Source of the DNA: Winogradskyella sp. PC-19
GTDB lineage: Bacteria; Bacteroidota; Bacteroidia; Flavobacteriales; Flavobacteriaceae
NCBI RefSeq assembly: GCF_002163855.1
Contig: NZ_CP019332.1
Span: 1,901,145 to 1,965,144, forward strand
DNA length: 64,000 nt
Direction of reading: 5' to 3'
Shown: piece after piece, positions 8,901 through 24,031 of the stretch
Layout of the letters: each line of letters begins with the position of its first letter
How positions within the stretch are numbered: position 1 is the first letter of the stretch
Notes under the pieces: model-generated
Database searches by the model: none
Told to the model about the DNA's origin: nothing
The model's input: only the letters and a program-made list of their open reading frames with translations
Translations under genes and position numbers: made by a program

Positions 8901-9521
8901 AATGGCCCGAAGCTTATCGTTAACTACAAAAAACTGAAATGGAGCTGGTGGCTCGTAAGCTGTTTGGTAATTTACAACACGCTCGTAACTATCACTAAAC
9001 CAATTTATTTTACCTGTTATAAATGATAAAAGCAAAATCACAACAGGAATAGCCGCGTACTTTAAATACTTAAGGCTAGACTTAAAGTTTATTGCCATTT
9101 GAAATGGAATCGGTTTTAATTCTGCTGATTTTTGCTCGATACTTGCTAGTAATAAATCGGATTGTTGGTTGTTTTGATTAAGTTGTAGCACATTGAGCAG
9201 TTTATCATCCACCTCAGGAAAATGATTCCCGATTAACTTACTAGCTGTTTCGTAGTCAATACCTTTTCGAAGGTTAAAAAGTTTTGCTAATGGGATAATT
9301 ATAAATCTTGTAAAGAGTGCTAATTCTACCGCTATAAAAGCCCAAAACAATATAGTTCTAGCTGTAGGGTTTAACCATAATAAATACTCAATCAAGAGTG
9401 TAATCATTAGATAAAGGACGCCAATAGCAAAAAACAAAATAGCACCTTTAAGTAATTCATTTGTGTAGAATTTCTTGATAAACTGCTGTAATTTGACTTG
9501 TATGGTCTTAAAATTGCTCAT
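5955..9521 (-). CDS. Large DUF4175-family membrane protein with coiled-coil and Gly/Lys/Glu repeat region
   Basis: 1188-residue protein of the Bacteroidota DUF4175 family, function not established. Two hydrophobic helices lie near 24-72 and a third near 150-172, followed by a beta-rich, presumably periplasmic region (about 180-480). A long, highly charged coiled coil (about 490-760, dominated by E, K and Q) follows, then a GGGGGP hinge, a Gln/Met-rich helical segment, a roughly 105-residue low-complexity stretch of G-E-K/G-x-x type (from about residue 947) and a short basic C-terminal helix. It is first in an operon-like run with ybeY (8-bp overlap). Compositional bias makes the repeat region prone to spurious open frames on both strands. 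Family call good, role unknown. Confidence 0.8.
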   Translation of the reverse strand: MSNFKTIQVKLQQFIKKFYTNELLKGAILFFAIGVLYLMITLLIEYLLWLNPTARTILFWAFIAVELALFTRFIIIPLAKLFNLRKGIDYETASKLIGNHFPEVDDKLLNVLQLNQNNQQSDLLLASIEQKSAELKPIPFQMAINFKSSLKYLKYAAIPVVILLLSFITGKINWFSDSYERVVNYQTAYEPPAPFQFFVVNDKLRAIENKDFTLIVKTVGNIIPDQVQIDYKNQTYFLQQNIPGEFQYVFSQPKEDITFSLLANDVVSKAYELNVVNVPTLVGFDMILDYPNHTQKRDEILKSTGSAVIPEGTNITWSINTKSTSDVNIYSNDTISFTRNDSGVFEASKRLYRNYSYSINTSNENLTNYESLAFSINVVKDAYPELNIKVEKDSVDQQSLYFYGQVSDDYGLRKLQLVYYSSDNETQKKVIPINISKSNFSEFVSAFPDQLDVKDGVAYNLYFEVFDNDAIHNFKNVKSTVFSYRKRTRDEEETKQLNEQNETIKNISKTFEKLEEQDKKLEELSKTQKEKEALNFNDKKKFEEFLKRQKQQEQLMKNFNKKLQKNLEEFQKEKDEKGEKDEFKEDLKERLKENEEQLKKDEKLLEELEKMTEKINKEEFSQKLEELAKQNKNKKRSMQQLLELTKRFYVTQKQQKIQKELEEISKKQEELSEKSPKENTKEAQEKLNKEFKEIQKAIDELMSENRKLRKPEDIERDKPTEESIKEDQKEAKESLEKSEPQKESEMQKAKNKQKAAAKKMKQLGKMMKQSMMSGGGGGPKIEEDVEMLRQILDNLVLFSFDQEDLMERFNEIDINHNQYGKFIIKQSTLKEHFEHVDDSLFALSLRNPKISEKINSQITDVYFNIDKSLGQLTENRIYQGVSSQQYTVTAANSLANMLSNILDNMEMSMNMQPGQGGEGEMQLPDIIMSQEELNKKMEEAMKKMQEGEKPGEGEKGEKGEKEGEEGKDGEKGKKEGESGQEGQQGKSGEKGGQESGGKEGEGKQGEGNQGENGKEGKGSEGKNGKDGKNGKNGDEDGEGEKNDGYGEGGSEEFNGELYKIYQQQQKLRQALQDKIGKEGSQGNAGDLIKQMEEVELDLINKGFTNQTLQKMMDLQHQLLKMENATFTQGEDEKRESKTNRKEYNSKTNSQIPTAKQYFNTTEILNRQALPLRSQFKKKLQDYFKSTND
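6361..6681 (-). repeat. Collagen-like Gly/Glu/Lys low-complexity tract inside the DUF4175 gene
   Basis: About 105 codons made almost only of Gly, Glu, Lys, Gln, Ser, Asn and Asp, with GEKGEKG, GKDGEKG and GKDGKNGKNG runs. The spacing is partly Gly-x-x but has no proline, so it is not a collagen triple helix; a flexible polyampholyte linker is more likely. The DNA is near-repetitive and could vary in length between strains. Confidence 0.8.
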
Positions 9522-20264: not shown

Positions 20265-20335
20265 GGTGTCGTGGCCGAGTGGCTAGGCAGTGGTCTGCAA
20301 CACCATCTACAGCGGTTCGAATCCGCTCGACACCT
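20265..20335 (+). tRNA. tRNA-Cys (anticodon GCA)
   Basis: 71-nt cloverleaf: acceptor GGTGTCG pairs with CGACACC, the anticodon loop is CTGCAAC with GCA at 20297-20299, and the T arm is AGCGG-TTCGAAT-CCGCT. The discriminator is T, as required for cysteine identity. CCA is not encoded. Confidence 0.96.
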
Positions 20336-20337
20336 CT

Positions 20338-20370
20338 AAAAATCCTCAACGATTGTTGGGGATTTTTTTA
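20338..20370 (+). terminator. Terminator of tRNA-Cys
   Basis: A 10-bp stem (AATCCTCAAC / GTTGGGGATT, one G-T wobble), GATT loop, followed by seven T residues, starting 6 bp after the tRNA. Confidence 0.85.
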
Positions 20371-20405
20371 TTTTAAAATTTTAAGAAAATTTAGGTGGGT
20401 GATTT

Positions 20406-20867
20406 TTAGTCTTTAATTTTTAACCATTCGTCGTAGGTGACTATTCTGTTTTCTTCGTTTGATTTTGTTTTGCCTTCTAAAACGCCTATAAATTCTAATT
20501 CGTGACCATCTGGATCACTAAAATAAATTGCTATCGCTGGCATCCAAACGAAAACCATTGGACCTTCACTTCCATCATTAAGAAAATTCCAGGATTTGAT
20601 GTTTTGTGATTTAAGGAAATCTAAAGATTCATTCTGTACCCAAAGTGGGTCACATTCAAATGCAAAATGCCTAATATCAATTTCTTCTTTTGGCTTTTCC
20701 CATAAGCCTAACATAAATTGTTTCTCTTCTCCTATCCAAAAGAAAGCAATTTTTCGTTCTTTACTAAAACGACAAAGCTTTAGACCAAGTGTATCTTTAT
20801 AAAAATCAACTGAACGCTGAAGGTTTTCTACAAATAAATGAGTTTCATAAAGTCCTTTTATCTTCAA
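20406..20867 (-). CDS. VOC-family (glyoxalase/bleomycin-resistance fold) protein
   Basis: 153 residues. ETHLFVENLQRSVDFYKDTLGLKL is the opening beta-alpha unit of the vicinal oxygen chelate fold, and AIAIYFSDPDGHELEFIGVLEG is its typical metal-binding end with the final Glu. HFAFECDP supplies the other histidine. The substrate is not predictable: family members include glyoxalases, dioxygenases and antibiotic-binding proteins. The best start is a TTG at 20867, since no ATG lies nearby in frame. Its start faces the cassette boundary at 20886, so the cassette sits immediately upstream and may have replaced its promoter region. Confidence 0.8.
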   Translation of the reverse strand: MKIKGLYETHLFVENLQRSVDFYKDTLGLKLCRFSKERKIAFFWIGEEKQFMLGLWEKPKEEIDIRHFAFECDPLWVQNESLDFLKSQNIKSWNFLNDGSEGPMVFVWMPAIAIYFSDPDGHELEFIGVLEGKTKSNEENRIVTYDEWLKIKD

Positions 20868-20885: not shown

Positions 20886-21016
20886 ATTGAACGGTCTCGG
20901 CTATGAGTAGTTGCGTGGTTTAGCGATTAACTTTGCAAGTACACACCAAGTTGGAAATTCCGCATGAATTTCCAAAGTAGGCGAGAACAAGCAATTACTT
21001 ATAGCCATTGTTATGT
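20886..21016 (-). repeat. attC-like structured recombination site at the 3' end of the 744-residue gene
   Basis: On the coding (minus) strand a 7-base ACATAAC box overlaps the gene stop and a GTT core lies at 20892-20890. Between them, arms at 20991-21006 and 20899-20914 pair over 16 bp with two G-T wobbles. An inner perfect 10-bp hairpin (TTGGAAATTC / GAATTTCCAA, loop CGCAT, 20951-20975) lies inside. Size, strand position and nested foldback resemble integron attC sites. ACATAAC is the exact complement of GTTATGT at the far gene boundary (23268-23274), which is how R'' and R' match in a circular cassette. The fit to RYYYAAC/GTTRRRY is imperfect. Confidence 0.6.
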
Positions 21017-23245
21017 TGCGTTTATTTCGTTTTTAATTTCATTATAGTATTCTGAACAAGCGAAAATGTAAACTATAAAACAACTAGTGATTATATTGAC
21101 AATTTCTAATTCAGTCCAGTCATTTGCTGAATGTGTGTCATTGTTTCTATAGTAGTAAGAAGTTTGTATGTGTTTACCGAATCTATATTTTCTTGCGTTT
21201 CTAAAATCCTTATACCTTTCTTCTGTTGGGTCAATTCTATCGAGTTTATCAATCACAGCTCCCAATCCCTTTTTGTTTGATGTAATAAAGTTATAATCAG
21301 GATTGTTTATTAAAAAAAGAATTTTCTTTAATAAAGGGTCTAGACAAGTTAGAAACTGTTTTAAATAGTTTAGTTTATCTACTCTATCAGATGCAGAAAG
21401 GTAAAATTTGTTTAAGTTGCCTAATAACCTTTGGTCAAGTCCATCGAACTCGCTAATACCGGTATTGTAAGCAATTAACTCGTTAAACAATTCAATACCT
21501 TGCTTCAAATCAAATGAATAACTTGGCGAAGTTTGGTCAGCAAAAGAATCTCTTAAATCACGATAAAGTTTTTCTTTAATTGACTGCCAGTTAAATTCAT
21601 CTATTGCTAAATTTTCTGAGCCTTGTTGTTTTAACGAGATTACAATTCTATTACCATTTTTGGATTTTATAAAATATTCAGTTTGTTCAAATAATTTATA
21701 AAAAGAAACTCTTGTAAAATGCTTATCTAAAGGTTGTAAAGCTTTGATGATTTCAGATGCTAATGCTTGCTTAGACTGTTTTTGATTTAAGTACTCAATA
21801 ACTTTTAATCTTTGCTCAATTCTATATTCTGGCTCGTGGGTAACCTCACGTTTTTTTCTTTTCGCAAATGCTAGACTAGAATACTTTTGTTTCCACTCAG
21901 GCAGTATCCATTTTTCAGATTCAACTTTCAGGCAATCTCTTCCTATTAGAGAGCGTACAGAACTTTCTTTTAATTTAGGTCTCTCTTTGATTACCTCTTG
22001 ATAAATTTCATCGTAACTACTTGGTTTATCTAATTTGTACAATGCCTTTTTTATGAGTAGCTCAATTTTGACAGAATTTTTTCCCCAAATTTTCAGTCCC
22101 CAATATCCAGTCTTACCAAGAGAAGTAAATCTATTGTCTGAGGCAATTGCCAAACTATGCCTATCATATATTTTTGAAGTATTAGAATGAATTAATCTGC
22201 GATTTATTTCTGATACAATATTGTCAATATACATTGTATCTCCATTTTCAATTAATACACGGTAAGCTCTATCACTTGCACTCGATAAAAACTCAAATTT
22301 CACTTGATATAAATTTATATCTCCATTTTGTATCATTTCTATTTCTGGCAGAATCTCGATGGCTTTGATAATATCTTTATTAGCAATAGTTTTAGCTTTT
22401 CTCTTGCAGTTGATAATTACTTGCATCTCATTTAGTGGTGAAATTGATTTTTTTAGTGTTCGTAGAACCAAATCAGCTGTTTTGAGAAATTTTTTCTTTT
22501 CTGATTTATCTATAATCAGGATATCAGCAGTTGTAAAATAAGTTTCCACTTTACCACATATGTGTAACGAAAACAAGTCTATAATTAAATTAATTACTTC
22601 ACCATTTTTATTGTTGTAAGAATAATTTTCTATTAAAAACTCTATTAAGGTCTCTCTACTAAGTATTTTTTGCTCAAAAACCTCTTTCTTTAATTTCACA
22701 TAGTTATTGCATAGTTCATTAACGCAATTACATCTTAATTCTTCATCTGTTCCTTTTGAGAGAAAAGAGTCGATTTTTTCTAAGGTTAATACCTTGAGTT
22801 GTCTAATTCGCTCACTCGTTTTTTGATAATAATCAGAAAGTTCCTCGAGAGTATATTTATCAGAACTATTAAGACCATAATAATGATTAATAATTCCTTT
22901 TAGCAAATCACTATTTCCTAAATTTAAGTAGTCACTGACAGTTTCATTAATTAAATCAATAAACGAGTCTGGGTTTAAATTTGGGTAATCTAAAGGGATA
23001 GAATATTGTTTGGTCTTCGATTCTTGTAATTCAATCAAGTCAATTAAATTGTGTTCAATATAATCTTGATAACTTTTAAGTTTGGAAACCACTGAGGCAC
23101 CAATTCCTTTTATTTCAGAAAATTCCAGAATAGCGATATTTGAAACTTCTTGTAAATTAGTAATTCCAAGCAAATCAAATTTTTTCAATAGGATTGATGG
23201 AATTGTTTCAAAAACATATTGAATTTTTATATCTGATTTATTCAT
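21011..23245 (-). CDS. Cassette-borne multidomain nucleic-acid-binding protein with HEPN-like C-terminus
   Basis: 744 residues; I do not recognise a named family. Residues 26-60 look like an HhH segment (LGITNLQEVSN...IKGIGASVVSKL), similar to the RNA polymerase alpha C-terminal domain. Residues 112-165 resemble sigma-70 region 4 (YGLNSSDKYTLEELSDYYQKT, then ERIRQLKVLTLEKI). Residues 322-388 and 392-449 look like winged-helix/HARE-HTH repeats, with a possible third at 473-540. The helical C-terminus (about 580-744) carries RNNDTH (700-705), fitting the HEPN RNase motif R-polar-x3-H near the start of the final helix. The gene sits inside an apparent integron-type cassette with no integrase nearby. 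A defence, toxin or regulatory role is inference only. Confidence 0.75.
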   Translation of the reverse strand: MNKSDIKIQYVFETIPSILLKKFDLLGITNLQEVSNIAILEFSEIKGIGASVVSKLKSYQDYIEHNLIDLIELQESKTKQYSIPLDYPNLNPDSFIDLINETVSDYLNLGNSDLLKGIINHYYGLNSSDKYTLEELSDYYQKTSERIRQLKVLTLEKIDSFLSKGTDEELRCNCVNELCNNYVKLKKEVFEQKILSRETLIEFLIENYSYNNKNGEVINLIIDLFSLHICGKVETYFTTADILIIDKSEKKKFLKTADLVLRTLKKSISPLNEMQVIINCKRKAKTIANKDIIKAIEILPEIEMIQNGDINLYQVKFEFLSSASDRAYRVLIENGDTMYIDNIVSEINRRLIHSNTSKIYDRHSLAIASDNRFTSLGKTGYWGLKIWGKNSVKIELLIKKALYKLDKPSSYDEIYQEVIKERPKLKESSVRSLIGRDCLKVESEKWILPEWKQKYSSLAFAKRKKREVTHEPEYRIEQRLKVIEYLNQKQSKQALASEIIKALQPLDKHFTRVSFYKLFEQTEYFIKSKNGNRIVISLKQQGSENLAIDEFNWQSIKEKLYRDLRDSFADQTSPSYSFDLKQGIELFNELIAYNTGISEFDGLDQRLLGNLNKFYLSASDRVDKLNYLKQFLTCLDPLLKKILFLINNPDYNFITSNKKGLGAVIDKLDRIDPTEERYKDFRNARKYRFGKHIQTSYYYRNNDTHSANDWTELEIVNIITSCFIVYIFACSEYYNEIKNEINAT

Positions 23246-23264
23246 TTCGTTTGTTTATCCAAAT

Positions 23265-23274
23265 GCAACATAAC
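23265..23274. repeat. 5' boundary of the cassette (inverted copy of GTTATGTTGC)
   Basis: GCAACATAAC here is the reverse complement of GTTATGTTGC at 21010-21019, so the 744-residue gene is framed by a perfect 10-bp inverted repeat. On the coding strand this is GTTATGT, the expected upstream cassette junction. It overlaps a palindrome TAACTAGTTA (23271-23280). Confidence 0.6.
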
Positions 23275-23347
23275 TAGTTATATCATAACTAATATATACT
23301 TTTATCAGTAAATATTAACGGGATAAAACAAGCTTTTAATTGCCTTA

Positions 23348-24031
23348 TTAGTTCTTTACAGGATTAATCTTCTCAATCTGTTCTTTGCTTTTCTCGTACA
23401 TATCTGGGAAAAGTCCTTGAGACAATAATAAAACTCCAAAACCCAAAATCACTAAAGCAACGATTTTTTTGGTTTTGAAAATACGACGAGGTGTGAGTTT
23501 TGTTCGTAAGCGTTTTGCTGCTGCTATTTTTATTAAATCAGTAACAAAATATGTGGTTAGCATGGTTGCAACAAAAACAATGGTACCATTTTCTGAAGTT
23601 GTCAAAGAGGTACCAATAACAATAAAACCTAACCAACCTAAAAGCACACCAATATTAATAAAGTTTAGTAAAAACCCTTTGATAAAGAGTTTTCCGTAGC
23701 CTTTTTTAATCTCTACTTTATGATATTCTCTTACAATAGACCGAAAAGATTTTGATGTTTTTACGAATGAAATAACGCCATAGACAATCAATAAAACGCC
23801 ACCAAATATTAAAAAACTTGGGTCGTCTTTTACTTTTTCGACCAATTTATTAGTACTAAAAAAAGCAACTAAGATAAATACAATGTCTGCTAATATTACG
23901 CCTAAATCAAATATTAATGCACTTTTAAATCCTTTTGTAGCACTAGTTTCTAGCAGTACAAAAAATACTGGACCTATCGTAAATGCAAGGATTATCCCAA
24001 ACGGTATGGCTGTTAATATATCATCAAACAT
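23348..24031 (-). CDS. LysE/RhtB-family exporter
   Basis: 227 residues with about six membrane helices. IPFGIILAFTIGPVFFVLLETSATKGFKSAL matches the start of the LysE family of amino-acid exporters, with the conserved Gly-Pro in helix 1. The loop between helices 3 and 4 is long and basic (KTSKSFRSIVREYHKVEIKKG), and the end is a short charged tail. Substrate unknown; family members export lysine, threonine, homoserine or cysteine. A TACATTTG box (24052-24059, minus strand) lies 20 nt upstream of the start and may be its own -7 element, separating it from the GIN-domain gene. Confidence 0.82.
   Translation of the reverse strand: MFDDILTAIPFGIILAFTIGPVFFVLLETSATKGFKSALIFDLGVILADIVFILVAFFSTNKLVEKVKDDPSFLIFGGVLLIVYGVISFVKTSKSFRSIVREYHKVEIKKGYGKLFIKGFLLNFINIGVLLGWLGFIVIGTSLTTSENGTIVFVATMLTTYFVTDLIKIAAAKRLRTKLTPRRIFKTKKIVALVILGFGVLLLSQGLFPDMYEKSKEQIEKINPVKN

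Follow-up and report, generated by a model that had tools for sequence, protein, structure and literature searches.

Between a LysE-type translocator gene and a VOC/glyoxalase-like gene, the genome of Winogradskyella sp. PC-19 carries a single gene followed by a long foldback. The question raised by this locus is whether gene and foldback form a gene cassette and, if so, what kind of recombinase moves it. In the window analyzed here, a stretch of 64,000 nucleotides, this is the single cassette; a recombinase of the type associated with cassette arrays elsewhere is absent from the 64 kb, and an Rfam scan of the window returned two tRNAs and nothing else. The interval 20892-23273 is very probably a mobile gene cassette belonging to an integron-like system in Bacteroidota, and functionally it is assigned to the integron-like cassettes with high confidence.

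The cassette lies on the minus strand and comprises the 2382 bp between two G/TT cut points (the slash marks the cut), containing one gene and its own recombination site. The cargo gene (21011-23245, minus) encodes 744 amino acids, and its stop codon overlaps the motif ACATAAC. The attC-like site (20890-21019, minus) extends from the R'' box at 21010-21019 to the R' core GTT at 20890-20892, where the downstream cut point ACCG/TT is located. R'' reads GCAACATAAC on the gene strand and complements the cassette's own 5' end, GTTATGTTGC (23265-23274, minus), which holds the upstream cut point G/TT. In the sequence as read, the two form an exact 10-bp inverted repeat with GTTATGTTGC at 21010-21019 and GCAACATAAC at 23265-23274. 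Between R'' and R', pattern scan and covariation delimit the two arms of a 16-bp L stem, GGCTATAAGTAATTGC (20991-21006) and GCAACTACTCATAGCC (20899-20914) on the gene strand, and DNA folding places an inner terminal hairpin at 20951-20975. The initial annotation had described a 744-codon gene with a stop overlapping ACATAAC, a 10-bp perfect inverted repeat, a foldback with a 16-bp outer stem containing two G-T wobbles and an inner hairpin, and a cassette of about 2382 bp; all of these were recovered at the same coordinates, the cassette boundaries through DNA homology that runs from GTT to GTT and the repeat as one case of a general complementarity between R'' and cassette 5' ends (see below).

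Homologs of the cargo were found in 3 of 249 genomes of a Flavobacteriaceae sample. Two of these are full-length with 79-80% protein identity and the third is a partial match (25% over the last 190 residues), and a tblastn search with the cargo against plasmids gave no match. At one locus (L235), the homologous cassette is found among six detected sites, and a blastn search with the window cassette and 300 bp on either side aligned query positions 301-2685 at 77%, homology starting and ending at GTT. At another locus (L236), in which only one further site was detected by HMM, the homologous cassette is located 3.2 kb downstream of an integrase gene (64% identical to the one of locus L151). Homology to the window begins exactly at GTT, and the start GTTATGTTGC, identical also in L235, and R'' are conserved in L236, the body of the site being different. 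This points to exchange or rapid divergence of site bodies. From position 9293 onward, L236 shows the same R'' with another attC body on a homologous cassette. Judged from homologous cassettes that stand at unrelated places and whose homology to the window begins at GTT, the cassette is very probably mobile. Compared with the cargo of L235, the window gene has a dN of 0.12 and a dS of 2.6, the latter near saturation, and the protein therefore looks selected. Its domain matches are weak, those to Sigma70_r4 (E 0.0026) and to DUF7669 (E 0.0047) both falling below the Pfam cut-offs, and PADLOC returned only MzaA (E 0.005). Its C-terminal RNNDTH resembles the RNxxxH motif of HEPN RNases. The cargo may be a defence gene, because the weak DNA-binding signatures are paired with this motif.

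The flanks of the insertion interval are formed by the LysE-type gene upstream (23348-24031, minus) and by the VOC gene (20406-20867, minus) and a tRNA-Cys gene (20265-20335, plus; detected with Rfam) downstream. In 28 of 30 relatives tRNA-Cys follows LysE within 1.5 kb, and in 21 of them within 330 bp. None of the 30 has the cargo, the element, or the VOC gene at a distance of up to 1.5 kb from LysE, and cassette and VOC gene therefore look like additions in the lineage of the window. A precise empty site, with 23274 joined directly to 20891, was not seen among these relatives, 0 of 30 having the VOC gene; the genus sample consisted of one genome, in which the VOC gene was not found either. 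The possibility that the VOC gene is a second cassette was rejected, as no site was seen after it (20336-20405, read by eye). The tRNA-Cys gene beside the VOC gene may be an insertion hotspot. Directly upstream of the cassette GTT stands TATAACTA (23275-23282, minus), a candidate attI-like insertion site, and its junction with GTT resembles the attI junctions of related platforms. Of 235 located junctions, 11 carry the motif, which was defined after seeing the window; two of these (L135 and L056) are one site. The motif precedes 32 of 32674 background GTT, and in the window it stands at 3 of the 2610 GTT. The cassette would have been inserted alone, without an integrase, at this attI-like site between LysE and the VOC gene.

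The observations by which, according to the initial annotation, its reading could fail include the lack of this element behind any other gene and a gene that is always in place. An HMM search located 289 elements in 149 sequences, at least one of them counted twice owing to overlapping loci, and the gene is missing next to LysE in all 30 relatives and has homologous cassettes elsewhere. A close copy of the site (E up to 1e-10) is present in 253 of 397 genomes of the Flavobacteriaceae family sample. Many genomes carry several copies, and at least 120 stretches of public genomes contain the site pattern, most of them from Flavobacteriaceae according to the record titles. The matches listed also include Echinicola, Marivirga, Marinifilum, a Saprospirales MAG, and one Neomarinimicrobiota MAG. 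A phage collection gave no match, and Polaribacter phage P12002L holds no copy of the site (best nhmmer E 0.77). With blastn, the site was found in three plasmid records (Persicobacter twice, Flagellimonas; 87.0, 88.7, and 83.5% identity); such cassettes therefore reach mobile plasmids, as indicated by the element on the Flagellimonas plasmid. On that plasmid (L002, 5448-6123) the element stands behind a DHFR-family gene, with an annotated erm(F) on one side and a Tn3 transposase on the other.

Most aligned copies end with ACCGTT followed by unrelated sequence. The complementarity between R'' and the cassette 5' end is a general property of the elements. In 147 consecutive pairs, drawn from the 289 elements after leaving out those without recognizable R'' or R', the cassette 5' end (GTTRNNNNN) matched the complement of its own R'' at a mean of 5.05 of 8 positions versus 2.64 in permuted pairs, the largest of 2000 permutations reaching 3.03. 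Positions 4-9 were all matched in 83 of the 147 pairs, in 57 of these together with position 10. In 73 of the 83 pairs, position 11 is A in the cassette start and G in the R'' complement, which corresponds to a G.T wobble on the bottom strand. In a wider search covering 274 elements, again those with recognizable R'' and R', a 5' start matching at 6 or 7 of 7 positions was found upstream of 235. Furthermore, mixed orientation occurred in 0 of 64 multi-element loci, and tandem co-oriented single-gene cassettes were found. The Persicobacter plasmid pPP2 carries an array of about 100 kb with small genes that are almost entirely co-oriented. In P. psychrovividus pPP2 (L001, L004, L006, and L007; about 302-404 kb) the genes of this array are mostly hypothetical and the sites of several types, and some cassette genes, e.g., WP_338398677.1 and WP_338398688.1, occur more than once. 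The stretches 1-40 kb and 262-404.6 kb of pPP2 have annotated transposases and no annotated tyrosine recombinase in a gene table that is incomplete.

The hairpin itself is unlikely to have arisen by chance. Its two-arm pattern has a single match in the window and none in 100 shuffles, and the foldback has a DNA folding z score of -2.40, with 2 of 200 shuffles folding as well. In 67 diverse elements (66 of 74 listed elements plus the window, whose row begins one base early), the 16-bp L stem is 97.0% paired versus 80.7% in shuffles and 27-48% when slid, and 145 double-change cells were counted versus 49.9 in shuffles. Most rows of this alignment are without extra bases in the L stem, a one-base insertion being present in some rows. 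The two G-T wobbles of the window stem are on the plus strand, which is the bottom strand relative to the gene, and the same two pairs are A.C mismatches on the gene strand. One of these pairs is G.U in 62 and the other in 66 of the 67 elements, while their neighbors covary. When 89 reconstituted sites were modeled as excised circles (88 pairs matching at 6 or more of 7 positions, and the window), the bottom strand was the more stable one in 87, with a mean advantage of -4.3 kcal/mol versus 0.09 (sd 1.69) for 200 random 145-mers. In classical attC sites, strand choice is given by extrahelical bases. In the elements described here, the conserved G.T wobbles would set it.

The enzyme that moves the cassettes is probably a tyrosine recombinase encoded just upstream of the arrays, which would be the integrase of the system. 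Among 20 regions with this gene, which were chosen by hand, some after an element had been seen on the same contig, 11 have a co-oriented element of more than 20 bits downstream and eight have no element above 15 bits, four of the latter meeting a contig end. In 4 of 11 loci examined for its position (L149, L155, L160, and L163) the first cassette begins 28-45 bp after the integrase stop codon, and the evidence for an attI beside the integrase with the first cassette attached to it comes from these four. The cassette start is located 0.3-2.9 kb away in L150, L152, L153, and L164, and none was found in L151, L162, and L161. Integrase and elements have opposite orientations in L168 and G415; on contig C24 of G415, integrase and array are apparently divergent, unlike the co-orientation elsewhere. 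In a reconstructed sample of 195 of 199 genomes, the element is present in 77 of 99 genomes with the N-terminal domain of the integrase versus 50 of 96 without it, leaving 22 integrase-positive genomes without a close element and 50 element genomes without a detected integrase N-terminus. This enzyme would move the cassettes by recombination.

This recombinase differs from IntI. It scores best against XerA, and four of four sequences reached 196-210 bits with the IntI model TIGR02249, for which the cut-off is 265. The IntI-specific insert is absent from all 19 new integrases, which have 58-59 residues between the flanking motifs; the spacing is 100 residues in the 16 IntI rows measured, two of which are the same gene and beside which one more remained unmatched, and 60-62 in XerA segments. 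In a structural alignment with a PDB entry, residues 189-243 of IntI4 are without counterpart in the new integrase. An N-terminal extension of about 95 amino acids is predicted to form a small alpha/beta domain. The AlphaFold prediction, made for six sequences, has a mean pLDDT of 77.5 and a pTM of 0.53, and the structure comparison covered residues 97-365, thus barely including this extension. In a tree of 60 proteins, which omitted one IntI frame repeating the gene of another row, IntI forms a clade with support 100/100 that contains no new integrase; 10 of the 17 IntI rows are from loci of the best-scoring matches in the phylum sample, at least one gene being present twice among these rows. 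The new integrases are on the IntI side of a split (98/99) from XerC/D and XerA. Support for them as one lineage is weak (29/62). An exclusive clade made up of the 19 rows is rejected (AU p 7e-10), in part at least owing to similar recombinases from outside the group list (L016, L041) that are placed among them. The system works like an integron but, judged by the integrase, is not an IntI integron.

It could be argued that canonical IntI integrons of Bacteroidota move this element as an ordinary attC cassette and that the recombinase beside the arrays is incidental. The logic of R'' and R' and the G/TT cut are those of attC, and 84 of the 296 genomes in the phylum sample have an IntI above the TIGR02249 cut-off, a count that is not directly comparable with published ones because this sample (that of G022) seemingly includes Chlorobium-like genomes. 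In addition, a passage in PMC9892861 reports recombination of a Polaribacter phage attC by IntI1, in a phage that has no copy of this element. However, 0 of 39 element-bearing genomes encode an IntI above the cut-off, six IntI regions have no element (E up to 10), ten other IntI loci yielded one weak element match (E 0.018), and the gene at the attI end of the arrays, with the first cassette 28-45 bp away in 4 of the 11 loci, is a non-IntI gene. This explanation is therefore regarded as unlikely.

A role of the host enzymes XerC/XerD, in the manner of dif modules or IMEX, or of a Y1 single-strand transposase is very improbable. Xer-type genes are present in these genomes, and a passage in PMC4792948 on CTXphi describes a folded single strand as usable by host Xer enzymes. 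Against this, the recombinase at the array start with its attI is separated from XerC/D in the tree, and no transposase ORF was seen inside the cassette in the ORF list. A non-mobile repeat that owes its spread to ordinary homologous events, such as a REP-like hairpin or a transcription terminator, is hardly credible. A stable hairpin immediately 3' of a stop codon and the many genomes with several copies would fit such a repeat, but the complementarity of R'' to the 5' end is specific for each cassette, homology ends at GTT with unrelated sequence after ACCGTT, and orientation is uniform in 64 of 64 multi-element loci. The integron-type reading of the initial annotation is thus upheld by the GTT-bounded homology, by the elements behind other genes, and by the attI-like junction of TATAACTA with GTT.

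For the integron-like cassette preferred here, the following sequence of steps is proposed. An excised circle would expose its bottom strand, which would fold into a long hairpin consisting of an R stem of about 10-12 bp, an asymmetric unpaired spacer, the 16-bp L stem, and a variable tip. The wobbles, being A.C mismatches on the other strand, would take over part of the strand choice from extrahelical bases. The integrase without the IntI insert would bind this hairpin and join it to attI just after its own stop codon or, alternatively, to an attI-like chromosomal site. With somewhat better than even confidence, these observations are attributed to a second integron lineage in Bacteroidota, in which I2-less tyrosine recombinases capture cassettes via single-stranded attC-like hairpins with a polarity laid down in fixed G.T wobbles instead of extrahelical bases. 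Such enzymes would either have been recruited independently or have diverged before the insert was acquired by IntI. The lineage would be present in most genomes of the Flavobacteriaceae sample and would have been overlooked because current models of integrases and sites are derived from IntI systems. Bacteria could then have a second kind of platform for collecting genes, and one with the same cassette logic minus the IntI domain would reveal an alternative way to achieve the same chemistry. If this is true, the origin of integrons becomes testable, and a large gene-exchange pool would be revealed, as one site subtype alone is present in 253 of the 397 family-sample genomes.

No description of this system was found in open-access papers, a scope outside which preprints and most subscription papers fall. 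Bacteroidota are listed among the phyla with integrons in a passage of PMC8618304, and the part of PMC9024848 reporting a 2022 survey of complete genomes gives one complete integron, that of Salinibacter ruber M1, for Bacteroidetes proper, beside ones from Chlorobi and Ignavibacteriae. According to an excerpt of PMC4792948, the IntI-specific domain is an adaptation to folded single strands, and XerCD are without I2-like domains. PMC8138268 describes the insert as incompletely conserved within the integron-like subgroup of that study, and insert-less relatives may for this reason already sit unnoticed in this subgroup.

Among the known systems, CTXphi with XerCD is similar in that a recombinase without an I2-like domain uses a folded single-stranded site (described in part of PMC4792948), but it combines a phage-borne site with host Xer and has neither a cassette array nor an attI beside a dedicated integrase. 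Archaeal XerA and the family NF040815 of NCBIfam ("site-specific tyrosine recombinase/integron integrase") lack the N-terminal extension of about 95 amino acids and the array association of the new integrases, and the two XerA segments group with XerC/D in the tree, away from the latter. CALIN or solitary integron cassettes resemble the window in having no integrase near the site, but relatives of the window cassette accompany a non-IntI integrase; according to PMC9024848, IntegronFinder 2 requires two or more attC sites before it reports a CALIN. The IntI integrons (class 1, Vibrio superintegrons, and Salinibacter ruber M1) share the co-oriented single-gene cassette arrays, the G/TT core, the complementarity of R'' to the cassette 5' end, the bottom-strand-favored hairpin, and the attI beside the integrase. 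In contrast to these, the recombinase described here is without the IntI insert (58-59 versus 100 residues) and outside the IntI clade, R complementarity extends over about 9-10 bp with a wobble at position 11 versus a 7-bp G/TTRRRY core, and the L stem carries near-fixed G.T wobbles.
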